Positions 19,874-39,974 of a stretch of 64,000 nucleotides of DNA are shown here, piece after piece. Below the pieces are notes generated by a model. The model saw only the letters and a program-made list of their open reading frames with translations, searched no databases and had not been told where the DNA came from. Both the position numbers and the translations under genes were made by a program. The DNA is from Gammaproteobacteria bacterium (GTDB lineage Bacteria; Pseudomonadota; Gammaproteobacteria; Enterobacterales; Neiellaceae). The stretch is taken from NCBI GenBank assembly GCA_017425245.1, contig JAFOOX010000040.1:1-64000 (forward strand). Reading direction: 5' to 3'. Each line of letters begins with the position of its first letter. Within the stretch, counting starts at the first letter, position 1.

Positions 19874-20296
19874 ATGAGACCAGTCTGCATCAGCCTGCTG
19901 CTGATGTCCTTATCTTTATCGGTATGGGCGGTGCCGTACGAGGGGCAGGTGATCGATCGCACCTTGGCCGTGTGTCTTGATCGTTCCTCCAGTGACAACA
20001 AGCGTCTGGACTGTCTCGATGGTGCACGTGATGACTGGGAGGAGTTGGTGGAAGACCTGACCGACAGTGTCGATGATGCGCTGGTGGCGCGTGGGCTAAC
20101 CGAACAGCGGCAATGGCATGCCAGGTTGGCGGCTCAGTGGCAGGGTTATAGAGCCGCCACTCTTGCCGGCATCAATGAAGCCTGTGGCCAGCGCTGCCTG
20201 CGTAACCAGCTGGAGACGGACCTGAGCCTGCTACGGACCAGGGCCAAGCGGCTGGATGCTGACTTGGCTGGGTTAGTTCCCGCCTCGGCACGATGA
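19874..20296 (+). CDS. Small secreted protein, LprI/DUF1311-like
   Basis: Predicted periplasmic protein of 140 residues with a signal peptide ending near V-W-A (residue 20). Four cysteines in two pairs (C-L-D...C-L-D near the start, C-G-Q-R-C near residue 108) and a W-x-x-Y-R helix recall the DUF1311/LprI lysozyme-inhibitor-like fold, but the match is loose. Helical and acidic. The ATG at 19874 directly precedes the signal peptide; the frame opens earlier without a leader-like sequence. It overlaps the frame of the next lipoprotein by only a few bases upstream of that gene's start, so the two are probably cotranscribed. Confidence 0.6.
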   Translation: MRPVCISLLLMSLSLSVWAVPYEGQVIDRTLAVCLDRSSSDNKRLDCLDGARDDWEELVEDLTDSVDDALVARGLTEQRQWHARLAAQWQGYRAATLAGINEACGQRCLRNQLETDLSLLRTRAKRLDADLAGLVPASAR

Positions 20297-20307
20297 TGGG
20301 AGCTTAC

Positions 20308-20700
20308 ATGGCCGGCACAGTTGAGTTGCCAGAAAACGCGACTTTCAGTCGTCAACGCTGGCTGCGCTGCCCGTTGTTGATTCTGGCACTGGCGGGTTGT
20401 GGCGGCGGAGGTGGTAGTGGCGAGCCGCCATCGCGGGAGGTGCCCGCACTGGAGTGGCAACTGCCCCAAGCGCGCATGGATGGTACCCCCATGGATGCTG
20501 CTGAGATTGCTGAAATCGAAATCTGGTATCAGCAGGAGGGAGGTGACAAGCCCCTGCTGTTGACTCTGGTGGCCGGGGATGCCACCCGCTACGTCCCGGA
20601 TGAATTGAGCGCGGGCCGTTATCGCTTTCATCTGGTCGCCATTGACATGAATTGGCTACGTAGCGAGCCTTCTGCCCAGCGGGAGCTGGTTGTGCCGTGA
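20308..20700 (+). CDS. Lipoprotein with a single fibronectin III-like module
   Basis: Predicted lipoprotein of 130 residues. The lipobox L-A-G-C ends at Cys31 and is followed by a flexible Gly/Ser stretch. One beta-sandwich module fills the rest, with L-E-W-Q-L-P, R-M-D-G-T near its start and G-R-Y-R-F-H-L-V-A-I-D near its end. I chose the ATG at 20308, which has GGGAG six bases upstream, over the ATGs at 20293/20296. The module is clearly related to the C-terminal part of the next gene. Function unknown; a surface or matrix role is suggested by the neighbours. Confidence 0.65.
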   Translation: MAGTVELPENATFSRQRWLRCPLLILALAGCGGGGGSGEPPSREVPALEWQLPQARMDGTPMDAAEIAEIEIWYQQEGGDKPLLLTLVAGDATRYVPDELSAGRYRFHLVAIDMNWLRSEPSAQRELVVP

Positions 20701-20846
20701 TCTGTTGCGCAAGGTCAAAGCGGATCAGCAGTTAGGGGTTGCTGTCGGGCGCTTAACTCGTTTAGCCTCTTGAGCCGCAAGATCTGCCGCGGTATGAGTG
20801 GGTCGGCGCTGCAACTTCCAACTTTTTTCCTTTGGAGTGCACACGG

Positions 20847-21791
20847 ATGTCGACAGAGATTACGACATTACCGCTCGCTACCGCGGTGCGCGGACTCTTG
20901 GCCGCGCTTTTGTTGTCGTTCACCTTGGCCGCCTGTGGCGGCAGTGGCGAGACAGAGCAGCCCTCCTTGCCTGCCGAGCAGGCACCCATCGATGCCCCGA
21001 GCGTTGATGGCGGCCAGACCGCAGTGGGCCAAGAACAACCTGCGGGTGAAACCGAGAGCGCTGCCCCGAATGATAGCTCGTCTACGACGGGTGGTCAGGT
21101 TGTGGCGGAAGAGCAATCCCCCTCGACGACAGGCCCGTCCATGCCCGGTGAGGGCTCCGATCCGGTTATCGCCGTTCCTGATGATGCGGCGTCTTCTGTA
21201 GTCGACATCGATACACCCTTGCAGGTGGTCGATGATCCCGGCACCTCAGCTGCGGGAGAGTTACCGACTGGTGACTTTGGTCCGGTACCTGGGGCGCCTG
21301 CGAGCGACAATCTCGACGAGCTGTTCGGCGATGAAACCGCGGGTAGCCGACGGGATGAAGAAGAGGTGGTCGACCTCGAAGAACCGCTCGTTATCGGCGG
21401 CGATCCGATTAGCGATCCTGAACCCGAGCTAATTGCCGAAAACCCCACGACACCAACCCCGGGCGATCTCGATGGATTGTTTGGCGATGGAACTGAGTCA
21501 GCAGGCATCGATCAGGATCAGAACCATTCCAGTTCCCGGGAGCTTCGTTGGGAGCTGCCATCCCAGCGCGTGGACGGTTCGCAGCTCAGTCGCCAGGAGG
21601 TCAAGGCGATTGAGTTGTGGGGCGGCAGGTCTGAACAGCAGCTGCAAAGATGGGCAACATTGCCGCCGGCGAGCCAGTCTTTCAGCTTGGCCGAGACTGC
21701 CAATGGGCTCTATCACTTCACACTGGTGACCGTCGATCAAGATGGTTTGCGCAGCGATCCTTCGGCCCCTGTGATCCGTGACCTGCGCTAA
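20847..21791 (+). CDS. Lipoprotein with long acidic linker and fibronectin III-like module
   Basis: Predicted lipoprotein of 314 residues. The lipobox L-A-A-C ends at Cys30. Residues about 35-230 are a low-complexity linker rich in Pro, Ser, Thr, Asp and Glu. It includes two L-D-x-L-F-G-D copies (N-L-D-E-L-F-G-D and D-L-D-G-L-F-G-D). The last 85 residues repeat the module of the previous gene (L-R-W-E-L-P, R-V-D-G-S, V-D-Q-D-G-L-R-S). GGAG lies nine bases before the ATG. The linker could let the module reach from the membrane through the periplasm or cell surface. Function unknown. Confidence 0.65.
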   Translation: MSTEITTLPLATAVRGLLAALLLSFTLAACGGSGETEQPSLPAEQAPIDAPSVDGGQTAVGQEQPAGETESAAPNDSSSTTGGQVVAEEQSPSTTGPSMPGEGSDPVIAVPDDAASSVVDIDTPLQVVDDPGTSAAGELPTGDFGPVPGAPASDNLDELFGDETAGSRRDEEEVVDLEEPLVIGGDPISDPEPELIAENPTTPTPGDLDGLFGDGTESAGIDQDQNHSSSRELRWELPSQRVDGSQLSRQEVKAIELWGGRSEQQLQRWATLPPASQSFSLAETANGLYHFTLVTVDQDGLRSDPSAPVIRDLR

Positions 21792-21847: not shown

Positions 21848-22510
21848 ATGCACCCATTTCGCGCTCCACCGCTGCTGGCCATACTGCTGCTATTGCTGGC
21901 GACGGCACTGGCAGTAGCCGATTTGACCATCACCAGCGAGCTGCTGGCCAAGGTGGAGCAGCGTTATGGCGTTGCCGCCAGACAACGGCTCGGCGCGCTT
22001 CATAACGAATTGCAACAGCTTGGTAACAGCAGCACGCTGGTTCAGCTGAAGGCGGTCAATGCTCACTTCAACAGTTATATCTTCCGCTCCGATCAAGAGC
22101 AGTGGGGGCGCGTTGAATATTGGGCCACCCCCTTTGAACTGATGGCAGCAGGCGCCGGTGACTGCGAGGATTTTGCCATCGCCAAGTATTTCGCCCTGCG
22201 TAGTCTCGGTATCGATGACGACCATTTGCGGCTGATGTATGTAAGGGCGCGCACTGGCAATCTTAATCAGGCGCACATGGTGCTGGCCTACTATCCCCTT
22301 GCAGATGCCGAGCCTCTGGTGCTTGATAATCTGGTGCCAGAAATTTTGCCTGCCTCGGCCCGCAGTGATCTGCAGCCGGTTTACAGCTTTAACGGCCGCG
22401 GTTTGTGGCAGGCCAAGGCCCGTGGCCTCGGCAACAAGTTGGTTGATAGTGGCGAGGGCGGCGTGCCCCAGTGGCAGGATCTGCTCACGCGCATCGAGCG
22501 CGGCGAGTAG
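21848..22510 (+). CDS. lapG: LapG-type periplasmic cysteine protease
   Basis: Bacterial transglutaminase-like cysteine protease of 220 residues with a signal peptide (about 1-24). The catalytic triad is visible: Cys106 in G-A-G-D-C-E-D-F, His143 in N-Q-A-H-M-V and Asp160 in L-V-L-D-N. In Pseudomonas fluorescens LapG cleaves the N-terminus of the giant adhesin LapA unless it is held by LapD. lapD follows after 21 bases. No LapA-like adhesin is encoded in this window, so the target here is either elsewhere or different. Confidence 0.9.
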   Translation: MHPFRAPPLLAILLLLLATALAVADLTITSELLAKVEQRYGVAARQRLGALHNELQQLGNSSTLVQLKAVNAHFNSYIFRSDQEQWGRVEYWATPFELMAAGAGDCEDFAIAKYFALRSLGIDDDHLRLMYVRARTGNLNQAHMVLAYYPLADAEPLVLDNLVPEILPASARSDLQPVYSFNGRGLWQAKARGLGNKLVDSGEGGVPQWQDLLTRIERGE

Positions 22511-22531
22511 GCGTTTGGCATAGGAGAGAAC

Positions 22532-24463
22532 ATGACTTTTAAGTTCCGCGTCTTTCTGATTTTGGTGGTGGTGGTGGTGATCAGCGGCGGTTTGCATCTG
22601 CAGCAGCAACTGGAAAGCACCCGTAGCTATCTCGAATCACAGTTGGGGCAGAGTGCCCAAGACGCTGCTCACCACGTCGGCATGTGGTTGCAGGACCCGC
22701 TGGCCGCCGATGATCTAGTGCTGGTGGAGACGCGGTTGGCAGCCTTTTTCGATTCAGGTTACTACCAGACTGTGCGTCTCAGTCGCCTAGATGGCAGCGT
22801 ACTGTTTGAGCGACAAGCCACCCAGGCACTGGATAGTACCCCCGACTGGTTTGTAAGCCTGTGGCCTATCACGCCGGCGCTACAGAGCAGCGAAATCAGT
22901 GATGGCTGGCGCCGGATTGCGGTTATTGAAGTGCGTGGCAACGCTGGTTTGGCCTATGCCCACTTGTGGCGGGCGGCCTTAGACACCATCTCTACCACCA
23001 CTCTGGTTGCCTTTATGGCGCTGATGCTTGGGTTGTTCATGCTCACATGGGTGCTGCGGCCACTGCGGGAAATGGCGTTGCAGGCTGAAGCGATTGGGCG
23101 AGGCGAGTTTCCGCTGATCGCTGATGGTCATCGGCCGCCGGAATTTGCCGCTGTGGTTAATGCTATGAATCGTATGACCCAGACGGTGCAACGTACCTTT
23201 GCCAACCTCAGCCAGCAGGCGGAGCGTTTTCGCGAAGAGGCTTACCATGACGCTGAAACCGGTCTTGGTAACCGAAGATCGTTCGAGGCTGCGCTGGAGC
23301 GTGAGTTGCTTGATGATCAAAGTCCCAACGGTTCGTTGCTGCTCGTTAATCTGGTGCAATTGGAAGCCTGGCGTCAGCAGCGCGGTGGTGGTGCGGTAGT
23401 AGCAGCGATCCGTCAGGTGTCCGAACTGGTGGCAACCCTGGCACGCGACCAGCATGGGCGCGCGTTCCGTCCCAATATGGGGGAGTTTGCCGTCATCCTC
23501 GAACTGGATGATTGCGCCCGTCTTGAGGGTCTGGCGGATCAACTGGCGGCCCGTTGTGCGGCGGTACTGGGCGCCGATGATGTGGCGGTGGTGGGCACCA
23601 ACTACATCACCGGCGAACAGCGTGGTGCGGTGATGATGCGCCTTGACAGTGCTCTGCGGCACCGCGGTGACGGCCAGGGCGGGCGCATTGTGGCTGCTGG
23701 TGTACAGCGCACGGTCAGTGATGGCACTCCTAATCGGCGTGAGCAGATTCGGGCATTGCTGGCCGACGATCTGCTGTCGCTGCAGGCCCAACCGATTGTT
23801 CACCCTAAGGCCCGTTTGCACCCGCTGATGCACGAAGTGTTGTTGCGCTTTGCGGGTGGCGGAGAGGGACTAACTCTGGTCGATCTGTTATCAGAGGTGC
23901 ACCGTTTTGGTCTTGCCGCTGAGCTGGATCGCAGAGTCATCGGTATGGCCATGCAGCAGCTGACTACGCTAGCTGACAACGTCCGCCTAGCGATTAATCT
24001 GATGCCGGCATCCCTTGCCGATGATCAGTTTCTGGTGTGGCTTGATTCGACCTTGCAGCGTCAACCAATGCTGGCTCGCCGCTTGGCATTCGAGATTCCG
24101 GAAGTGGCGGTGGCACGCAGCAAGCCGCTGGTGATGCAATTGGCTCAAGTACTTGCAGCACACCATAGCGGGTTGACCATTGAACATGTTGGCGTGGCGG
24201 CAGCGCCCTTTATCTATCTGCGTGATCTTAAACCTCAGCAGATCAAGATTGATGGACGCTATCTGCGCGCGATTCCGGATGAGAAAGAAAAGTGGCAGTT
24301 TATCCGGGCGTTGATTCAGATGGGGCAGGGGTTGGGTATCGCTGTCTTTGCTGAGCAAGTTGAAAGCGAAGCGGAGCTGCTCGAGCTGGCGGCGCTGGGA
24401 ATTGACGGGGTGCAGGGGTACGGTGTCGCGCGACCAGCCCCGTTGGGGTCGGTGAATGAATGA
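22532..24463 (+). CDS. lapD: LapD-type c-di-GMP receptor with degenerate GGDEF and EAL domains
   Basis: Inner-membrane receptor of 643 residues. In order: membrane helix (about 5-22), periplasmic LapD/MoxY-type domain (about 25-150), second helix (about 152-176), HAMP (about 177-230), GGDEF (about 240-390) and EAL (about 405-640). The GGDEF signature has decayed to P-N-M-G-E-F (314-319) and the EAL triplet to E-V-L (435-437), so the protein should bind rather than make or cleave c-di-GMP. In the known system, c-di-GMP-bound LapD sequesters LapG through its periplasmic domain and so stabilises the adhesin. Confidence 0.9.
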   Translation: MTFKFRVFLILVVVVVISGGLHLQQQLESTRSYLESQLGQSAQDAAHHVGMWLQDPLAADDLVLVETRLAAFFDSGYYQTVRLSRLDGSVLFERQATQALDSTPDWFVSLWPITPALQSSEISDGWRRIAVIEVRGNAGLAYAHLWRAALDTISTTTLVAFMALMLGLFMLTWVLRPLREMALQAEAIGRGEFPLIADGHRPPEFAAVVNAMNRMTQTVQRTFANLSQQAERFREEAYHDAETGLGNRRSFEAALERELLDDQSPNGSLLLVNLVQLEAWRQQRGGGAVVAAIRQVSELVATLARDQHGRAFRPNMGEFAVILELDDCARLEGLADQLAARCAAVLGADDVAVVGTNYITGEQRGAVMMRLDSALRHRGDGQGGRIVAAGVQRTVSDGTPNRREQIRALLADDLLSLQAQPIVHPKARLHPLMHEVLLRFAGGGEGLTLVDLLSEVHRFGLAAELDRRVIGMAMQQLTTLADNVRLAINLMPASLADDQFLVWLDSTLQRQPMLARRLAFEIPEVAVARSKPLVMQLAQVLAAHHSGLTIEHVGVAAAPFIYLRDLKPQQIKIDGRYLRAIPDEKEKWQFIRALIQMGQGLGIAVFAEQVESEAELLELAALGIDGVQGYGVARPAPLGSVNE

Positions 24464-24557
24464 GGCTCCGTAGTGCAGGTCTCTAGCAGGTGGCGACAAT
24501 TCCGGGTGACAAGGTTAGGCTTTAGCCCATTTCGATGGGCGGCCGCAGGCGTTTGCC

Positions 24558-26591
24558 ATGACCTTGGGTGAAGTTGGCTACTGGCTGGCAACAGCAGCCT
24601 TTGTGCTGCTGACAGCTCTATTGTTCACTGCACCCCTTAACAACCTGTCGGCGCGTCTGATCCGAGTTTTTTCTGCCTGCGTGGCGATCTGGGCCTTGAT
24701 CAATGCGTTGATGTTGGGGACCACGCAGGGTTCCTTACCGCTGATTCTCGGCATCGAAATGTGGCGCAATCTTGCGCTGCAACTGGCATTGCTGGCGCTG
24801 CTACGCGGCTCCAGAAACTGGCGAGAGTTGCTGCGCGAACGCTTGCTGCAGCTGGCATTGCTGCTGTGGTTGTTACCACAACTGGCGCTGTTTCTGCCTC
24901 TCGGCGGCGCCGAGTGGTTGCGCGGTCTGGTGTTTGGTGGCCTGCTTGGCCAGACCTTGTTGACCTTGTTTCTGGTGGAGCAGAATTTCCGCCTGTTGCC
25001 TGATCATGCCCGTCGTCCCTTCCTGCCCTTCATGCTGGGTGTCGGCGCCGTGCTAGTGTTCGATTTTGTTCTCTATGCCGAAGGGTTGCTGTTGCTGCAA
25101 CTCAACGCCAACTTCTGGGATGCGCGAGGCTTTGTCTGGGCCGGCGCCATGCCAGCGCTGTTACTGACCACTCGTCGTTTACCCGGCTTGGCGGTGCGGG
25201 TGTTCGTATCACGTCAGGTGGTGTACCACTCAACGCTGCTGATGGCAGCTGGTGCCTACCTGTTGGTGATGGCCGGGGCTGGTTATTACATCCGTTATTT
25301 TGGCGGCGACTGGGGCCACGTGATGCAGATTGCCTTTATGGCTTTGGCATCCCTGCTGCTGGCCGCCATCTTCTTTTCAGATGCGTTCCGCCGGAAGGTA
25401 AAGGTGTTTATTTTCAAACACTTTTACGCAAATCGTTACGACTATCGGGTGGAGTGGTTGAAGCTCAACCGGCAGTTGCATGAACGTAAGGCCGATGAAG
25501 CCCTGCCATTGACAGTGCTACGGGCGATGGCCATGGTGGCCCATGCCCCCTGCGCCTTCCTCTACCAATGCCAGAGTGAGAAGATTAGCCAGACGGCAGC
25601 GTGGCCGGATGACTCGCCGGTGACCTTGGCGCATGACCAGTTAGCCGGGCTTTTTGCCTTTTGTGAAAGTGAGAGCTGGATTGTCGATGTGGGTGAATAT
25701 TCTCGCCATCGTCAGCGTTATGGAACCCTTAAACTCGATGTGGAGACCTGCCAGCAGTTAGGCGTTGCCTTGTGGGTCCCGGTTTATGAGGGGGAACGGG
25801 TTACCGGACTGTTCGCTTTGGGGCGGCATGCGGAAGACCCACCGATCAACTTCGAAGACCGCGATCTGCTCAACACCGTTTCCAGCCAGCTGGCCACCTA
25901 TCTGGCGCTGCAGCAGGCCAACGAGGCGCTGACCGAAGCCCGCCAGTTCGACGCCTTCAACCGGATGAGCGCTTTCTTGCTGCATGATCTCAAGAACATC
26001 GTTGCTCAGCTCAACCTAATTGTGATCAATGCTCGCAAGCACAAGCACAATCCAGAGTTCATTGATGACAGCCTTGAAACCTTGGCCAACGCGGTGGCTA
26101 AGATGCAGCGCATCATGCAGCAGCTGAAAAAAAGTGATGGCGCAGCGCTGGAAACCACCCATCTGGTGGACTTGGCCGATGTGATCGAGCTGGCTGTCAC
26201 TCGCCAGCAACAGCTGTCCCCTCTGCCTCAGCTGGTGCTCGGCGGGCGAGTGCTGGTGCGTGGTGACGGCGAGCGCCTGCAAGCGGTGCTGGCCAACCTG
26301 ATCCAAAATGCCCAAGAGGCCACAGCGGATGGCGGTGTTGTCAGGGTCAGCTTGAGCAGCAGTGATGGTTGGGCAGTGGTGACCGTGGAGGATGATGGGT
26401 GCGGTATGTCGGAGCAGTTTGTCCGTGAGCGCTTGTTTCGGCCGTTTGATACCACCAAGGGTAACGCCGGCATGGGCATTGGCGCTTATGAAGCTCGTCA
26501 GCTGATCCTGGCGCTCGGCGGCCAATTCGATGTTGCCAGCCGTGAAGGTGAGGGGACGCGGATCAGCTTGCGCCTGCCTGTGCAGGGCTGA
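24558..26591 (+). CDS. prsK: PrsK, histidine kinase of the XrtA/PEP-CTERM system
   Basis: Sensor kinase of 677 residues. About eight membrane helices fill 1-275, followed by a GAF domain (about 315-455). The phosphorylated His476 lies in F-L-L-H-D-L-K-N, and the ATPase domain has N-L-I-Q-N-A-Q-E-A and D-D-G-C-G-M. The architecture is that of PrsK, which accompanies exosortase A. It should phosphorylate PrsR, encoded 98 bases downstream. The signal sensed is unknown. A GCCCAT-TTCG-ATGGGC hairpin lies just upstream, between lapD and this gene. Confidence 0.92.
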   Translation: MTLGEVGYWLATAAFVLLTALLFTAPLNNLSARLIRVFSACVAIWALINALMLGTTQGSLPLILGIEMWRNLALQLALLALLRGSRNWRELLRERLLQLALLLWLLPQLALFLPLGGAEWLRGLVFGGLLGQTLLTLFLVEQNFRLLPDHARRPFLPFMLGVGAVLVFDFVLYAEGLLLLQLNANFWDARGFVWAGAMPALLLTTRRLPGLAVRVFVSRQVVYHSTLLMAAGAYLLVMAGAGYYIRYFGGDWGHVMQIAFMALASLLLAAIFFSDAFRRKVKVFIFKHFYANRYDYRVEWLKLNRQLHERKADEALPLTVLRAMAMVAHAPCAFLYQCQSEKISQTAAWPDDSPVTLAHDQLAGLFAFCESESWIVDVGEYSRHRQRYGTLKLDVETCQQLGVALWVPVYEGERVTGLFALGRHAEDPPINFEDRDLLNTVSSQLATYLALQQANEALTEARQFDAFNRMSAFLLHDLKNIVAQLNLIVINARKHKHNPEFIDDSLETLANAVAKMQRIMQQLKKSDGAALETTHLVDLADVIELAVTRQQQLSPLPQLVLGGRVLVRGDGERLQAVLANLIQNAQEATADGGVVRVSLSSSDGWAVVTVEDDGCGMSEQFVRERLFRPFDTTKGNAGMGIGAYEARQLILALGGQFDVASREGEGTRISLRLPVQG

Positions 26592-26689: not shown

Positions 26690-28075
26690 GTGGCCATCAA
26701 AAAAGAACACTTGCTGATTGTCGATGACGATCCGGGAATCCAGAAGCAGCTGAAATGGAGCCTTGAAGGCTATGATCTCGTCTTTGCCGAAGATCGTGAG
26801 TCTGCGCTGGTCCAGTTGCGACGCTTTGAACCACCGGTAGTGACGCTGGATCTGGGGCTTCCCCCCGATCCGGCCAACGCCAGCGAAGGCTTGCGCACGC
26901 TGACCGAGATTCTGGCGCTGTCGCCCTCGACCAAAGTCATAGTGGTTACCGGCAACGACGACCGTGATTGTGCCTTGCGTGCCGTCGGCGAGGGTGCCTA
27001 CGACTACTACCAGAAGCCGATCGACCCTGATGTACTCAAAGTGATCATCGATCGCGCTTTCCACCTCTATCGGCTGGAGCAAGATAACCAGCGTTTGCTG
27101 GTCGGTCGTGGTGATGGCCCGCTGGCGGGCATCATCGGCAACAGCCCGCAGATGGTTAAACTGGGGCGGTTGGTTGAGCGTATCGCGCCAACTGAAGTGA
27201 CTGCTCTGCTGCTCGGCGAGAGCGGCACCGGCAAGGAACTGCTGGCCCGTGCAGTGCACAACCTGAGCCCGCGTCGCAATGCCGCGTACATCGCCATCAA
27301 TTGCGCCTCCATTCCAGAAAATCTGCTGGAGAGCGAGCTGTTCGGTTTCGAGAAGGGGGCCTTTACCGGCGCCATCAAGAAGACCAAGGGCAAGATTGAA
27401 TGTGCTCAGGGCGGTACCCTGTTCCTCGACGAGATCGGCGATATGCCGCTGCCGTTGCAGGCCAAGATCCTGCGCTTCCTGCAGGAGAAGACCATCGAGC
27501 CGGTGGGGGGGCGTACCGACATTCTGGTTGATGTGCGGGTGGTGTGCGCCACCAACCGTGACCTGCAGGCGATGGTCGCAGAGGGCAGCTTCCGCGAAGA
27601 TCTCTATTACCGCATCTCCGAAGTGACCCTCAATATCCCGCCGCTGCGCAAGCGTGATGGTGACGCCGTATTGCTGGCTCGCGCCTTCCTCACGGCCTAT
27701 GGCCGCGAGTTTGGCCGTAACCTGATTGGCTTTAATGAGGCGGCGCTGGCGGCCATCTGCAGTTACTCCTGGCCCGGCAACATCCGCGAGCTGCAAAACA
27801 AGGTCAAATCTGCCGTCATTCTGGCTGAAGGCAAGATGGTCACGGCAGAGGATCTGCAGCTTGACGGTGGCAATGTCGATGATCTGGCGTTCAACCTGCG
27901 GGCCGTACGCGAAGAGGCTGAAAAGCGGCTGATTACCCGGGTGCTGGCCTACACTGACGCCAATATCTCGCGCTCGGCAGAACTGCTTGGGGTAACCCGC
28001 CCGACGCTCTATGCGCTGATGGACAAGTACGCCATCATCGAAGAACGCAACCGTCGTCAGAACGTCACTGGCTAA
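26690..28075 (+). CDS. prsR: PrsR, sigma54-dependent response regulator of the XrtA system
   Basis: Enhancer-binding transcription factor of 461 residues. The receiver domain (about 1-125) has phospho-acceptor Asp54. The AAA+ domain (about 145-375) has Walker A G-E-S-G-T-G-K and the sigma54-contacting loop G-A-F-T-G-A (223-228). A Fis-type helix-turn-helix is at the end ([15 protein letters not shown]). The start is GTG at 26690 with AGGGAG upstream. It should activate sigma54 promoters of PEP-CTERM genes; a good candidate target is at 947-961 in this window. Confidence 0.92.
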
Positions 28076-28094: not shown

Positions 28095-30869
28095 ATGTCT
28101 ACCCTGACTCTGCAACTGCGTCGTCATCTGCTGGCCTGTGCCGTGGTCGCGGCCATCGTCGGCTGCGGCGGTGAACGGACGGAAGCCGAATATCTGAGTT
28201 CGGCGTCTACCTATGCAGCCGACAATAAACACGCTGCAGCTATCATCGAGTACAAGAACGCGTTGCAGCAGAATCCGCGCAACGTCGATAGCCGGCTGGC
28301 GCTGGCTGCGAGCTATCTGGTGGTTGGTGATGCGGCCAGCGCCGAGAAGGAACTGCGGCGGGCGGCGGAACTGGGTGCCAGCAGCGAGCAGGTACTGCCG
28401 TCGCTGGTGCGGGCGCTCAACCTGCAGCAACAGCATGAAGCGATTATCAAGGAGACGGCGCGGCTCGACAGCCTACCGCCAGCAACGCGCATCATGCTCC
28501 ATATCGCCCGTGGCCAGGCCTTTGTCAGCCTGGATCGTGAGGCTGAGGCCCGCGCTGAGTTCGAATTGGCCAACGAGCTCGACCCGCAGGCGCCCTTGGC
28601 TCGGCTTGGCGACGCCTATGTCAAGGTGTTTAACGATCAGGCCGAAGAAGCGCTGGCTGCCCTCGACACCTTGCTGGCCGATGCGCCGGCGCTGGAGGAG
28701 GCCTGGCTGCTGAAGGCCCGGCTGCAGCTGGCGCGGCGTGATGTCAGTGGTGCTATCGACTCTTTTGCCACCCTGATCAAGCTGGCACCGCAGGTGCTGG
28801 GTTATCGCCTGCTCTATGCCGAGGCCTTGCTGCAGGGAGAGCGTTATGACGAGGCGCGCACGGAACTGGCCAGCCTGCGCAAACAGATCCCCAAACATCC
28901 GGTGCCGCTCTACTACGAAGCGGTGATCGCCTTTTACGACAAGGACTGTGACAAGACTTTGGAGCGTGCCGGTGCGGTACTGCAGCAGCTGCCGCAGCAC
29001 GTCAACAGTCGCCTGTTGACCGGCTATTGTCACTATCTCAAGGGCAATCCTGAGCTGGCTTATGAGTTTTTGCGTGGCAGTGCCGCCCAGATGCCGCCCG
29101 AACATATGGCTCGCAAGGTGTTGGCACTGACCGAGTTCAAGCTCGGCTATCACGATCAGGCGGCCCAGACCCTCGAAGACTATCAGGGCTCCAGCGCGGC
29201 GGACGCCGAGCTGTTCTCCAACATCGGTGGCGCCCTGATCCGAGAGGGGCGGGCCGAGGATGCCAAGACCTTGCTGGAGCGTGCGGCGGCACAAGGCGGT
29301 AGCGACGCGGTGACGCGTGCTCGTCTCGGCATGGCCAAACTGGCACTGGATGACGAGTCGGGGCTGACCGATCTGCAGCAGGTGCTGGCGACTGACCCCG
29401 ACAACCAGCAAACCAAGGTGCTGCTCGGTCTTAACTTGCTGCAGCGCAACAAGAATGATGAGGCCAAGAAACTGGCCGACGAATGGCTGGCGGCCGAACC
29501 CAAGAATGTCGATGCCATCAATCTGTCGGCCCTGGTGGCCCGCGCTGTGGGTGACAATGCTCGCGCCCAGACCCTGCTGGATGAGGCCCTGACCCTTGAC
29601 CCGGTCAACCGTAACAGCCACACCCAGCTGATGCAGATGGCGTTGCTGGCCAAAGATATCGTCAAGGCTCGCGAGCACATTCGTGCCGTGCTTGATCCGG
29701 GCGAAGTGTCGTTGCCGCTGGTGGAACTGTGGTTCGGCGCTGAACAGGCGCTTGGTGACACCGCCAAGGTGGGGGACTATCTGGCTGCGCGGGTGGCCGT
29801 TAAGCCGGATGATGCCAGTGCACGCTTGGCCTTGGCCCGTTATCGCCTCTATCAGGGGCAACCCGCTGATGTGGAGGCTCTGCTCAGCCCGCTCAAGCCC
29901 GATGCGGGCCAGTATGCCGATGGTCAGTTGCTGCGGGCCCGTGCATTGCTGGCCAGCGACAAGGTGACCGAGGCCGAGAAGCTGCTGCGCGCCTGGCGCG
30001 ACGCCCAACCCAAGGATGCCCGTAGTTACCTGGCATTGGCTGAGTTTTATCTGAGTCAGCGTCAACTCGACAAGGCCGCGGCCGAGGCTCGCAGTGGTCT
30101 TAACGAGTACCCCAAGGGCAGCGCCTTGTTGATGATGATGGCGAGTATCGAGCTGCAGCGTGGCGATCTCGGTGCTGCCGCCGAGCAGATCAAGATCCTC
30201 GATCGTGAGCAGGTCGATAACCCCCAGGCGGATGAGTTGCGGGCCCGTCTGGCCTTGGCACAAGGGCGTGCCGACGAAGCGCTGACCTTTGCTCAGCGCT
30301 CGGCGGATGGCCAGCTCAGCGCGACCCGCGCCGCTCTGCTGGGCCAGACACTGGTTGCCGCCGGTTACAAGGACAAGGCGCGCGAATACCTGGAACAGCA
30401 TCTGCTGACGTCACCGAACAATGCGGCAGCGCGCAATGTACTTGCGGATCTCTATCTGCAGACGGAGCCCGACAAGGCGATTGCCAGTTACCGTGATGTG
30501 CTCAGGGTGCAACCGGACAATGTGCTGGCCCTCAACAATCTGGCCTGGTTACTGGGTGAGCGTGGCGAGGTGAAGGAGGCGATCCCCCTGGCTGAGCGTG
30601 CCAACAGCCTGTTCGCAGGTAATGCTATGGTTCAGGACACGCTGGGCGCCCTTTATCTCAAGGATGGTGATGGCGCCCGGGCATTGCCACTGATCGAAAA
30701 AGCCTCAGCAGCCATGCCCAAGGATCCGACGATCCGTCTCCATCTGGCCGAGGCGCTGGTCGCCACTGGCGATAAAGCGCAGGCCCAACAGATTTTGACC
30801 GAGCTGAAGGCCGGTCCCGATTTCGGCCACAAGGCTAAGATAGACGCACTGCTGGAAAAGAGCCGATGA
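28095..30869 (+). CDS. prsT: PrsT, TPR lipoprotein of the XrtA system
   Basis: Predicted periplasmic lipoprotein of 924 residues (lipobox I-V-G-C, Cys24). Almost all of it is tetratricopeptide repeats, for example [13 protein letters not shown] near the start and [13 protein letters not shown] near the end. This is the usual third member of prsK-prsR-prsT. A role as a scaffold for polysaccharide or protein secretion is likely but not proven. It begins 19 bases after prsR, and its stop overlaps the next start (ATGA). Confidence 0.9.
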
Positions 30870-31762
30870 CCACCGCCCAGCCCGGATACATGACGGTTGA
30901 TGTCGAGGAGTATTTTCAGGTAGCGGCCTTTGCCGGCACCCTGGACAAGGCGCAGTGGGACCAACTGCCGTCACGTCTCGACTGGTGCATGGACCGGGTG
31001 TTGGCCGGCTTTGATGACGCCGGTATCAAGGCCACCTTTTTTGTGCTGGGCTGGATCGCTGAACGCCACCCGGCGGTGATTCGCCGGCTAGTGGCAGAGG
31101 GGCATGAGCTTGGCAGCCATGGCTATGGCCACGACAAGCTGGAAAACTTGACCCGGGCCAGTTTTGTTGAGGATATCCGCAAGGCCAAGGCGATTCTGGA
31201 ACAGGTGGGCGGTGTTGAAGTGAAGGGCTATCGCGCCCCCTGCTTCTCGATCACCCCTGACAACAACTGGGCCCACGATGAGATCCTGGCCGCCGGGCAT
31301 AGCTACAGCTCCAGCGTCTTTCCCATCCGTCATGACCTGTATGGGGCGCCACTGGCGCCCAGAACGCCATTCCAGCTGGCCAATGGTCTGGTCGAGATTC
31401 CGGCAACCACGGCCCGCCATTTGGGTCGCAACTGGCCGGCTGCAGGCGGCGGCTTCTTCCGACTGCTGCCTTTTACCCTGTTTCATCAGCTGTGGCAAAG
31501 CGCCCGCAAGCAGGGGGTGCCAAGTATCTTTTACTTCCATCCGTGGGAAGTCGACCCGCAGCAGCCGCGGGTTGAGGGGGCGCCACTGCGCTCCCGTTTT
31601 CGCCATTACCTTAATCTCCATCAGACGGAACCGCGTTTGCGTCAGCTGCTGGCCCGTTACCAGTGGCAGCGGCTGGACAGCCTGGCGGTTGCCGGCCCAT
31701 GGCCACAGGTCAGCTCCTGGCCGGATGTCGCTCAGGGGCTGACGGGGTGTGGTTGCCGCTGA
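30866..31762 (+). CDS. XrtA-associated polysaccharide deacetylase
   Basis: NodB-fold deacetylase of 298 residues with the DUF3473-type C-terminus found in exosortase loci. Metal and catalytic residues are visible: T-V-D-V-E-E-Y-F near the N-terminus (Asp12), S-H-G-Y-G-H with His85 and His89, and [14 protein letters not shown] in the second half is typical of this subfamily. No signal peptide is seen, so it probably acts on a cytoplasmic or membrane-bound glycan intermediate. It is coupled to prsT by an ATGA overlap. Confidence 0.9.
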
Positions 31763-31850: not shown

Positions 31851-33344
31851 ATGGTGATGCAGCAGGAGCCGCTGGTGGCTGGTTGGTGGTCGCAGTGGCG
31901 CGCCACTTTGGTCGTTGTATTGGTGGGGGCCGTGGTGTGCGCCGTGCTCTGGCCGACCACGCTCAGCCTCTATGCCCGCTGGATCCGCATGGACGAAGCC
32001 TACAGCCATGGCTTCCTGTTACTGGCAGCGGTGCTGGTGCTCATTGCCCAGCAGCCTTGGCCTGCCATGCAGACCGGGCGGCGTTGGCCTTGGCTACTGG
32101 CAATGCTCCCGGTTGCCATGCTGTGGTGGGTCGGTCATCTGGCGGACATCATCCTGTTCGAACAGCTTTGCCTACCCCTCTTGTGGTTGTGTGGGGTGGG
32201 GGCCATTTGGTCGAGCTCAGCGTTGCGCGCCTTTGCTTTCCCGATCCTGTTTCTCTATTTCGCCATTCCCATCTGGGACCATCTGGTACCGGTGTTGGTG
32301 GATACTGCGGTCCATGTGGTCTCCTTTTTGGTGGCCCGTACCGATATTCCAGTGATGATGCAGGGCGATCAGATCGAAATCCCCAGTGGCATTATCACCG
32401 TTGCCGATGGTTGCTCTGGCGAGCGCTATCTGGTTGTCGGCTTGGCTTTCGGTACCCTGGCTGCCCGTCTTTATTTCAGTCGCGCCGGTTGGCGGGCGCT
32501 GATCATCGTGCTGGCGCTGGTTTTGGGGCTGGTAACCAACTGGGTGCGTATTTACCTGCTGGTGCTGATCGGCTACGCCACCGAGATGCGCAGCAGCCTG
32601 ATGCATGATCACGAGCTCTTTGGATTCGTACTCTTTGCTATCATCTTTGCCTTTCTGGTGTGGCTGATCCGCGCCCACAGTGATCAACAGTCGCCGCCAG
32701 CACCGACGGCGCCGCCACGGCGTCTGAACGGCAGCTGGATGGCCGGCGGTGGCTGGTTGCTACTGTTGGCCCTGCCTCATGTCAGCGCCACTCTGCTGAC
32801 CAGTGGTCCTGGAATCAGCCCGCTGCCGCTGCCGGAATTGGCAGCGACCAAGGTTGACTGGCCGTTGGGACGGCCGCTGTTTCGGCAGCGCAATGAAGCC
32901 CGCCTAGAGCAAAGCTGGCAGTTGAGCGAGCAACCTGCGGCGTGGATCAACCTCACCCATACTGGCTTTGGTGATGCACCAGACCTCTTTCCCTACAGCA
33001 CGCTGCTGCTGCGCGACGACTGGGTGATTCTCGGTCAGCGGGTGATCCGCGACGACGATGGCCACCAGGGGCGGGAGCTGGAACTACGCGGCCGCTATGG
33101 CGGCGAGCGCTATCTTGTGCGCTACTTTCTGGCGGTGGGTGATATGGTGACCACCAACCCCTATCTGGCCAAGCTGGCTGAGATCCCGGCACGTCTCAGT
33201 GGCCGGCCTACCGGCACCCGCTTGGCACTTATTGCTCATTGTCTGCTGCAGGATTGCGCTGCCGCCCGGTTGAAGCTCGAGCAGTTGAGCGCAGAGGATC
33301 CCCGTGTGATCCTGTCCACCTATCTCAATGGTGATTGGCCATGA
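31851..33344 (+). CDS. xrtA: Exosortase A fused to EpsI domain
   Basis: Integral membrane transpeptidase-like enzyme of 497 residues that processes and anchors PEP-CTERM proteins. Residues 1-275 form the multi-helix exosortase domain with the catalytic triad: Cys188 in V-A-D-G-C-S-G, Arg233 in N-W-V-R-I-Y and His254 in D-H-E-L-F-G. Residues about 290-497 are the EpsI domain, a periplasmic module often encoded separately. GAGGGG precedes the ATG. There is an 88-base gap after the deacetylase, with no terminator. The stop overlaps the next start (ATGA). Confidence 0.93.
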   Translation: MVMQQEPLVAGWWSQWRATLVVVLVGAVVCAVLWPTTLSLYARWIRMDEAYSHGFLLLAAVLVLIAQQPWPAMQTGRRWPWLLAMLPVAMLWWVGHLADIILFEQLCLPLLWLCGVGAIWSSSALRAFAFPILFLYFAIPIWDHLVPVLVDTAVHVVSFLVARTDIPVMMQGDQIEIPSGIITVADGCSGERYLVVGLAFGTLAARLYFSRAGWRALIIVLALVLGLVTNWVRIYLLVLIGYATEMRSSLMHDHELFGFVLFAIIFAFLVWLIRAHSDQQSPPAPTAPPRRLNGSWMAGGGWLLLLALPHVSATLLTSGPGISPLPLPELAATKVDWPLGRPLFRQRNEARLEQSWQLSEQPAAWINLTHTGFGDAPDLFPYSTLLLRDDWVILGQRVIRDDDGHQGRELELRGRYGGERYLVRYFLAVGDMVTTNPYLAKLAEIPARLSGRPTGTRLALIAHCLLQDCAAARLKLEQLSAEDPRVILSTYLNGDWP

Positions 33345-37600: not shown

Positions 37601-38604
37601 ACCTGCGCGCGCTTAAATCCCGTTTGGTGCGGTTGGCGGCGGCCTGCGGCGGCTATGCGCTGGCCCGAGTGCTGACGGCCCGTCAGCCCAAGATCCTGAT
37701 GTATCACCGCTTCAGCGAGCAGCCTGAGCCAGGTCATGTCGACCGGCTGAGCTGGCGCCAGCAGCTGGCCTATCTCAAGCGCCACCATCAGGTGATGAAC
37801 ATGGCCCAGTTCATCGCGTTACGTGCGCGTAATGCGGTGCCACCCCACACGGTGGTGCTGACCATTGACGATGGTTACGGCGATTTTTACAGCGTGGCCT
37901 TTCCCGAGCTGCAGCGAGCGGGGCTGTCGGCCACCTTGTTTGTCAGCACGGCGTTCATCGATGAACAGCTGTGGCTGTGGCCAGACCGGCTGGCCACCAT
38001 CATTGATCAGTTGCCGGAGGGCGAGCTGGCGCTGGCTGTGGTTGGCGAACCCCGCCGTTACCGGCTGCCGGCAGAGCGGCCGCGACTGGCGGCTGATCTC
38101 AAGGCCCAGCTGGTGCCATTGGCGCTGGCGCAAAAATATCAGCTGCTGAGTGCCTTGGCAGCGCCCTTTGGCATCGTGGTCGAGGGGCCGGTACCGGAGG
38201 CGTTTGCCCCCTGCAGCTGGGCTCAGCTACGAGAATTGCAGGCCGCCGGTATCGAGATTGGCGGCCACTCGGTTCATCATCCGATCCTCAGTGCCGAGGC
38301 GGATGAGCAGGTAAGGCGTGAGATCATCGACTGCAAACTGAAACTCGATGCTGAGCTACCACAGCCGGTGATCTCGTTCTGTTATCCCAATGGCGAAGCC
38401 GCGGACTATGACCAGCGCGCCAAGGCAGCCTGTCGTGACGCCGGCTTTACCAGCGCCGTGGCAGCCCACCACGATCACCTTGGTTTTGATGATAATTATG
38501 ATCTGCCCCGCTATTCCGGCAACCATGACATGTTCCATGTGGCTAAGGTGGCCAGTGGCATTGATTATCTGGGCCGGCGCTTAATGCAATGGGGCAAGGT
38601 ATGA
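37597..38604 (+). CDS. Polysaccharide deacetylase (NodB fold)
   Basis: Second deacetylase of the locus, 335 residues. T-I-D-D-G-Y-G-D carries the catalytic and metal-binding aspartates, and G-G-H-S-V-H-H-P provides the metal-binding histidines. The N-terminus has K-I-L-M-Y-H-R-F, usual for this group. No clear signal peptide. It differs from the XrtA-type deacetylase at 30866 and belongs to a more general carbohydrate esterase 4 group. It suggests an N-acetylated sugar in the repeat unit that is partly deacetylated. Confidence 0.85.
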   Translation: MNLRALKSRLVRLAAACGGYALARVLTARQPKILMYHRFSEQPEPGHVDRLSWRQQLAYLKRHHQVMNMAQFIALRARNAVPPHTVVLTIDDGYGDFYSVAFPELQRAGLSATLFVSTAFIDEQLWLWPDRLATIIDQLPEGELALAVVGEPRRYRLPAERPRLAADLKAQLVPLALAQKYQLLSALAAPFGIVVEGPVPEAFAPCSWAQLRELQAAGIEIGGHSVHHPILSAEADEQVRREIIDCKLKLDAELPQPVISFCYPNGEAADYDQRAKAACRDAGFTSAVAAHHDHLGFDDNYDLPRYSGNHDMFHVAKVASGIDYLGRRLMQWGKV

Positions 38605-39974
38605 CGGTGCTACATTCCGCCTGGCAAAAGGTTCGCGCGAATACCGAAACGGCACTGGTTAGCAACGCCACCTTCTATTTGTACTTGCTTTACGTCATCG
38701 ACTATTTCATTCGTATTCATGCCCGTATTCCCGGGGTCGGGGTAATCCGGCCAACGCTGCTAATGGCGATATTGATTATATTGCTGCTAGTGATTCAAGC
38801 TGAAAAGTTAAAAGACCGTTGGCAGCATGAGAGTGCCAAAGTAATAAAGGTCCTGATCATTTACGTCTTTATAACGCTGCCATTGGTCGCTTGGCCGGGT
38901 AGCGTGATAAAAAACAATCTGCCTGAATTTGTTAAAGCGGTACTGTTCTTCTTTTTTACGGTCTGCATTGTGGACTCGCAGAAAAGACTGAAGACATTTT
39001 TGGTCATTTTTGTGGGATGTCAACTATTTCGTGTGCTTGAGCCTCTTTATCTTAATGCCACTGAAGGATATTGGGGAAGCAAGACCCATTTAGGAGGGGG
39101 CGAGTTTGCCCTGCGTCTGGCTGGTGGTCCTTATGACGTGATTAACGGTAATGAGTTAGGATTCGTTATTGCCACGGTTGTCCCGTTTTTGCATTACCTT
39201 GTTTTTCCGCGTGGTATCTTGGGTAAGATAGTATATTTTGGATTGTTGCCGTTATTATTGTATGCAATGGTCTTGACCATGTCCCGTGGCGCATTTTTGG
39301 CCTTGCTGGTGGTCCTCTTCTTTATCTTTATTCGATCGAATAATAAGTTACTGCTGGTCGGGGTTGCAGTGATGGCCATGATCTTTGCATGGGGGAAAAT
39401 GTCAGATGTGCAACGTGAGCGCTACCTGTCCTTAACGGGTGCGGATGTCAGAGGTGCAGAAACTGCTGCAGGTCGTGTAGCTGGCGTTGGTCATGAATTT
39501 GAATTGGCTATGGAGATGCCGATCTTTGGTCATGGTATTGGTACGACTCCAGAAGCAAAATTTCACCGAACAGGGCGAACCCAGGCTGCCCATAGCTTTC
39601 CAGCTGAGTTAATAATTGAAATCGGTATCATCGGACTCGTAATCTTTGCCAAGTTTATTTTGACCGCATGGCGAAACCTAAAGGCGCTGACTGGAGCAAT
39701 CGGGGCTAGTGCGGCGACCTCGGCAGAGCAGCTATGGCGGCGTGATCTCATATATACATTACAGTGCGTGTTCTGGATGTATGCGTTTTATAGCCTGAAT
39801 TATTGGGGGCTGTCCCAGTACTATTGGTATCTATTCTGTGGTTTGACGGTGGTTATAGGGCGGCTGCTGAACGATGATTTTGAAAACGCAGTGGTAAAGA
39901 CAAGCGAGCCAGACAATGAAAAACATTCTCCTCGTCGTTCGGTGGCCCGTCGGCGGCATTCGCACGTATCTTAA
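38601..39974 (+). CDS. O-antigen ligase/polymerase-type membrane protein (Wzy-like)
   Basis: Inner-membrane protein of 457 residues with about ten to twelve helices and a large periplasmic loop (about 280-340; G-A-E-T-A-A-G-R-V and G-H-G-I-G-T-T-P). This is the layout of the Wzy_C/WaaL family. In this context it most likely polymerises lipid-linked repeat units. AT content is visibly higher than in upstream genes. Start ATG overlaps the previous stop (ATGA). The last 59 bases overlap the next gene, and the tail encoded there is basic and unusual. Confidence 0.8.
   Translation: MTVLHSAWQKVRANTETALVSNATFYLYLLYVIDYFIRIHARIPGVGVIRPTLLMAILIILLLVIQAEKLKDRWQHESAKVIKVLIIYVFITLPLVAWPGSVIKNNLPEFVKAVLFFFFTVCIVDSQKRLKTFLVIFVGCQLFRVLEPLYLNATEGYWGSKTHLGGGEFALRLAGGPYDVINGNELGFVIATVVPFLHYLVFPRGILGKIVYFGLLPLLLYAMVLTMSRGAFLALLVVLFFIFIRSNNKLLLVGVAVMAMIFAWGKMSDVQRERYLSLTGADVRGAETAAGRVAGVGHEFELAMEMPIFGHGIGTTPEAKFHRTGRTQAAHSFPAELIIEIGIIGLVIFAKFILTAWRNLKALTGAIGASAATSAEQLWRRDLIYTLQCVFWMYAFYSLNYWGLSQYYWYLFCGLTVVIGRLLNDDFENAVVKTSEPDNEKHSPRRSVARRRHSHVS

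Follow-up and report, generated by a model that had tools for sequence, protein, structure and literature searches.

The lapG-lapD pair in front of prsK belongs to a LapG/LapD lineage that is associated with exopolysaccharide (EPS) loci and is distinct from the adhesin-linked one, an assignment well supported by the trees of both proteins. It is rather probable that the pair is a c-di-GMP switch of this EPS-locus subfamily, that the target of the switch in relatives is a small exported protein, here named X, and that the LapD of the window probably gates both LapG proteins of its genome. The module of X and the neighboring ligase gene W is the most valuable outcome of the analysis.

The lapG-lapD pair and its genomic neighborhood

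The window is the whole stretch of 64,000 nucleotides that was analyzed. The gene lapG (LapG1, 21848..22510, forward strand) encodes a periplasmic C93 cysteine protease. The protein reached 54.5 bits with the Peptidase_C93 profile (cut-off 27), and the solved LapG chains 4fgo (1.9e-45) and 4u65 (1.7e-43) aligned with most of its length. The residues C106, H143 and D160, which we take to be the Cys-His-Asp triad of LapG, are invariant among the orthologues and aligned with 4fgo, and thus the triad is intact. This assignment agrees with the available part of PMC3032545. With the narrow NCBIfam equivalog NF045674 nearly the full length was aligned, but the score was 202.3 bits and did not reach the cut-off of 320, and, therefore, LapG1 is outside this equivalog and was not filed under it. 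LapG cleaves in a calcium-dependent manner between the two alanines of a TAAG-like site, and LapG1 is predicted to do the same.

The next gene, lapD (22532..24463, forward strand), encodes a c-di-GMP receptor with the full LapD architecture, i.e., LapD_MoxY_N (114.4 bits), HAMP, GGDEF and EAL domains. Sequence and alignment revealed that both catalytic motifs are degenerate: the GGDEF site reads NMGEF, the EAL site reads EVL, and another sequence stands in place of the usual DDFG. The score with the equivalog NF045673 was 344.8 bits, which is below the cut-off of 1020, and, thus, the protein was not filed under it. All genes from lapG and lapD to prsK, prsR and prsT are on the forward strand, with gaps of 21 bp between lapG and lapD and of 94 bp between lapD and prsK. 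Domain scores, motifs and coordinates thus confirmed the original prediction, i.e., an intact LapG and a LapD with degenerate motifs directly before prsK-prsR-prsT.

The downstream genes, all on the forward strand, form an XrtA/prs EPS locus. They encode the XrtA/PEP-CTERM histidine kinase PrsK (24558..26591; TIGR02916, 650.9 bits, cut-off 300), the sigma-54 response regulator PrsR (26690..28075; TIGR02915, 700.5 bits, cut-off 502.6), the TPR lipoprotein PrsT (28095..30869; TIGR02917, 591.2 bits, cut-off 312.2), an XrtA-system polysaccharide deacetylase (30866..31762; TIGR03006, 373.2 bits, cut-off 276.2) and an XrtA-like exosortase (31851..33344; TIGR02602, 133.3 bits, cut-off 105.55; 196 bits with TIGR03109, slightly below the cut-off of 208). 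An O-antigen-ligase-type protein resembling PEP_O_lig_1 follows at 38589..39974 (TIGR03097, 93 bits, below the cut-off of 188.1). The combination of prsK-prsR-prsT and an exosortase is the same as in the PEP-CTERM/EpsH (XrtA) system, but, in contrast to the window, the available part of its description contains no LapG, EAL or GGDEF component (PMC1569441).

Two related lipoprotein genes precede lapG on the forward strand. The first (20293..20700) has a lipobox, a Gly run and one fibronectin-III-like (FN3) domain; its model had a mean pLDDT of 76 and of about 90 in the C-terminal domain, and the Foldseek matches were mostly FN3 domains (best 6.7e-4). The sister species (G113) has an orthologue, and a genome from another genus of the family (G020) encodes a related lipoprotein. 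The second (20832..21791, 319 aa) is also of the FN3 type and has a long acidic linker. In G020, one relative is encoded beyond lapGD, on the other flank of the pair, and all three genomes (that of the window, G113 and G020) have a GH31 gene nearby.

A scan with the sigma-54 -24/-12 consensus found no site at 11/12 in the window and none at 10/12 upstream of lapA; one 10/12 site lies beside PEP-CTERM genes on contig C5. Co-regulation of the lap genes by PrsR and sigma-54 was rejected, because no strong site was found in the window or before lapA.

Two lineages of LapG and LapD and the adjacency to prsK

A classification of the neighborhoods with tblastn divided the 56 LapG loci into T1SS-linked (31), X-W (8), prsK-linked (3) and other (14). 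Seven of the X-W loci had been sampled because of the first LapG tree (40 rows), and the majority of the remaining loci were included later as controls. In the 56-row tree a branch with 98/91 support set apart the eight lapGD-X-W rows, the three prs rows and two others, and all 31 T1SS-linked rows were on the opposite side. The two others are L052 of G020, a member of the EPS clade without evident EPS neighbors, and L199 of G016, in which the start of LapG is covered only by an ORF of 122 aa. All of the 200 bootstrap trees (100%) separated the EPS-side and T1SS labels by one change; the tree has long branches, and the positions of single rows are unsure. The split in the LapD tree (49 rows) matched that of LapG with an SH-aLRT of 96, and the prs trio was grouped with 99. 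The trio was also recovered as a group with 40 LapG rows (90/86), whereas with 56 rows its members were not resolved from the rest of the EPS clade. Both LapG types are present in seven genomes (G000, which is the window's own genome, G113, G031, G478, G012, G057 and G016).

The lineages also differ in the loop by which LapD anchors LapG. In characterized LapDs it reads GWxQ according to the available part of PMC4359373. This motif was found in 21 of 29 T1SS-linked LapD rows versus 0 of 11 X-W and prs rows; three of the T1SS rows (L182, L184 and L200) may hold a neighboring GGDEF/EAL protein rather than LapD. In the X-W and prs rows the Trp is kept in 10 of 11 and the Gln is replaced, and the LapD of the window has GWRR, i.e., Arg in place of Gln. 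The LapGs of family f10 (L187-L193) have DCDD, not DCED, at the catalytic Cys.

Next, the frequency of lapGD beside prsK was determined. The PrsK sample of the order had 53 of 148 genomes over the cut-off, and a draw from the phylum had 44 of 398 genomes at 1e-80, all over the cut-off and 32 of them new, giving 85 genomes in total. A C93 protein over the cut-off was present in 38 of the 53 and in 10 of the 32, respectively, i.e., in 48 genomes. The adjacency was found in three of these (G000, G113 and G020), which all belong to one family with seven sampled genomes, and in none of the other 45, with a neighbor possibly hidden in a few cases in which prsK is at a contig end (G111, G012). A scan of named genomes with LapG1 yielded two loci only. 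In G113 the gene order is the same as in the window, and the contig with lapGD starts inside prsK; in G020 lapGD is divergent from prsK. The predicted recurrence in relatives thus holds for these two genomes, but a general linkage of lapGD and prsK was rejected, as it was seen in 0 of the other 45 genomes. The same is true for the proposed coordination of Lap and exosortase: no general linkage of the two was found, but in other families the subfamily of the pair is linked to EPS loci.

The lapG-lapD-X-W module in relatives

In the EPS clusters of eight relatives lapG and lapD are accompanied by genes for an unnamed small exported protein (X) and a WaaL-like O-antigen ligase (W). The module occurs in several gammaproteobacterial families (L105, 6834-11290, and L096-L102). 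The four genes are on the same strand in all eight loci, the spacing of X and W is at most 181 bp, and that of lapG and lapD is at most 75 bp in seven loci and 1141 bp in L100. X and W were found beside LapG in 8 of 8 X-W loci and in none of the T1SS-linked (31), prs-linked (3) and other (14) loci. Polysaccharide genes, judged by eye, surround the module; galU, wecB and members of the vpsD and vpsF families are nearby in Pseudoalteromonas sp. THAF3 (NZ_CP045419.1), in which X is WP_138548842.1. An X-W pair not beside LapG is present in G020 (L094, 7497-9533) and in Vibrio sp. THAF191d (L104, 9367-11320), and a LapG is encoded about 300 kb away on the same Vibrio replicon. A match of W in Azospirillum was rejected as a further case, because its EPS cluster has no LapG, and a LapD query against plasmids, with 1285 matching records, lacked the specificity to be of use.

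The X ORFs have 159-246 aa and one layout: a start that resembles a signal peptide (by eye), a variable middle, TAAG, and a Gly-rich tail ending with N or Q. TAAG is present near the Gly-rich C-terminus in 9 of 10 X proteins, and the tenth, from L100, has TASG. Among 268 ORFs of 140-260 aa from 53 loci, TAAG was located 15-60 aa before the C-terminus in nine, each of which is an X protein, and in none of the remaining 259. An HMM (X-core) that spans the site in 34 columns was built from X alone. Its best match other than X in the stretches of G000 was the site in the LapA retention module (E 0.0081), followed by the corresponding sites of G064 (0.066) and G082 (0.069). The profile retention_LapA (NF033682, cut-off 50) matched two of four scanned X proteins weakly (20.7 and 21.1 bits) and the other two not at all. 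Judged from these matches, X has only the cleavage region in common with the LapA retention module.

All three W proteins that were scanned matched Wzy_C (71.6, 89.9 and 73.2 bits, cut-off 31.7). The W profile also matched 7tpg, a polysaccharide polymerase/ligase that is presumably WaaL, at 9.4e-5 with the HAHND stretch aligned. By profile and structure match W is, thus, a WaaL-like protein with putative ligase activity.

By homology, LapD would hold LapG at high c-di-GMP and free it to cut at low c-di-GMP. The pair would be a working c-di-GMP switch of a subfamily whose evolution was separate from that of the adhesin-operon type and which resides in EPS loci. The predicted cognate target in the relatives is X, which would be exported by Sec and is encoded between lapD and W, and freed LapG would cut it at TAAG. 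X is predicted to be a new class of LapG substrate that links c-di-GMP to EPS retention. A role of X as an EPS anchor is the most attractive idea, because the ligase W adjoins it, and a regulator of export is the alternative. Only tentatively can a more detailed version be proposed, in which the EPS chain is attached by W to the Gly/Ser/Asn-rich tail of X and is kept at the cell by X. A fall of c-di-GMP would let LapG cut X at TAAG, and the coat would be shed; the pair of the window would be a member that has moved beside the XrtA EPS locus.

No description of X-W with LapG was found in searches of the open-access PMC literature. LapG of Pseudomonas aeruginosa is a partial precedent, since with CdrA it acts on a target other than LapA, with a possible site near the C-terminus, as suggested here for X. 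CdrA, a two-partner adhesin of about 150 kDa according to the available part of PMC4694147, is large, whereas X has 159-246 aa and is linked to a ligase. HvyA of Caulobacter, which controls the surface polysaccharide, is the nearest precedent. It is a cell-cycle-regulated, C93-type protease in a capsule locus, its activity in preventing capsulation depends on the catalytic Cys, His and Asp, and LapG is called its distant relative (PMC4241560). In contrast to lapGD-X-W, the available part of that paper mentions no LapD and does not name the target. X would offer a testable target type for such proteases of capsule loci. LapG is known for cutting giant adhesins. If the proposal is true, a LapG/LapD lineage with a dedicated small substrate beside a polysaccharide ligase would be a direct post-translational handle of c-di-GMP on EPS.

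Targets of LapG in the window genome and alternative explanations

In G000 X-W was not found in 1.19 of 3.45 Mb (35%) searched, which does not prove its absence, and the X-core HMM and a scan with the X pattern gave no credible candidate on the window's contig. This speaks against extending the predicted target of the subfamily from the relatives to the window. The only recognizable LapG target in G000 is the adhesin LapA on other contigs. Contig C61 encodes its N-terminus with the retention module (93.2 bits, cut-off 50), in which the site reads DPTLAFEAAAAG and is of the AAAG type. Contig C63 has the operon lapA(C-terminus)-lapB-lapC-lapE-ompA-like-lapG2, with lapG2 as the last gene and no lapD. 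No LapA-type adhesin is encoded in the window, as had been stated originally, whereas the genome does have one. The neighborhood at prsK is not unique to G000, but a normal LapA and its type I secretion genes are present elsewhere in the genome.

Two C93 proteins of G000 were over the cut-off, LapG1 and LapG2, and a further C93-like match on contig C74 was under it (21.9 bits). The LapD beside prsK is the only one found in this genome, which is 89% complete, so that a second LapD could be missing. The sister species likewise had a single LapD and two LapGs over the cut-off, and its adhesin operon (lapC-lapE-ompA-like-lapG2) has no lapD after lapG2. In four other genomes of the family (G044, G064, G082 and G098) lapG and lapD are together inside the adhesin operon. 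Because the lapA operon has its own LapG and no LapD, one LapD probably serves both LapGs in the genus of G000 and G113, in which the pair is adjacent to the XrtA/prs EPS locus.

These results could also be explained by an ordinary Lap system with a split locus, in which the pair serves LapA only and the adjacency to prsK is a rearrangement without function. LapA with its AAAG site, the T1SS and LapG2 on C61 and C63, where LapD is lacking, are in accordance with this, as are the confinement of the adjacency to one small family and the lack of a shared sigma-54 site. However, both trees place the pair in the EPS-locus lineage and not with the adhesin type, and the proximity of lapGD and prs has been retained across two genera in spite of a changed orientation. 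The split-locus explanation is possible, but we regard it as doubtful. The original suggestion that LapG cuts a component of the exosortase system, for instance a PEP-CTERM protein, is very improbable. Apart from the same-strand adjacency to prsK-prsR-prsT and the XrtA-like exosortase, which would fit it, the results speak against it: none of the eight PEP-CTERM-like proteins, one of which is encoded at 261-851 in the window, contained [TPA]AA[GV], the X-core HMM found nothing credible in the window, and the SAAG of the 319-aa lipoprotein was rejected as a LapG site, because it is not conserved, i.e., it is absent in G113. The protein at 261-851, on the reverse strand, has a short hydrophobic C-terminus that ends with Arg, and it scored below the Pfam cut-off.

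The favored reading, an EPS-locus switch whose LapD probably gates both LapGs, has the protease, the receptor, the catalytic triad and the LapG-binding Trp in common with the Lap system of Pseudomonas fluorescens (LapA/LapD/LapG), and the LapA with retention module and T1SS elsewhere in G000 are a further likeness. In contrast to that system, LapG and LapD of the window are of the other lineage, are located at an EPS locus and have the anchor loop GWRR, and in the relatives the adhesin and the ABC exporter are replaced, as partners of LapGD, by a small exported protein and the ligase W. LapG2 of the genus of G000 and G113 (L005, 840-1754) has a Pro-rich C-terminal extension of about 80-100 residues beyond the LapG domain.
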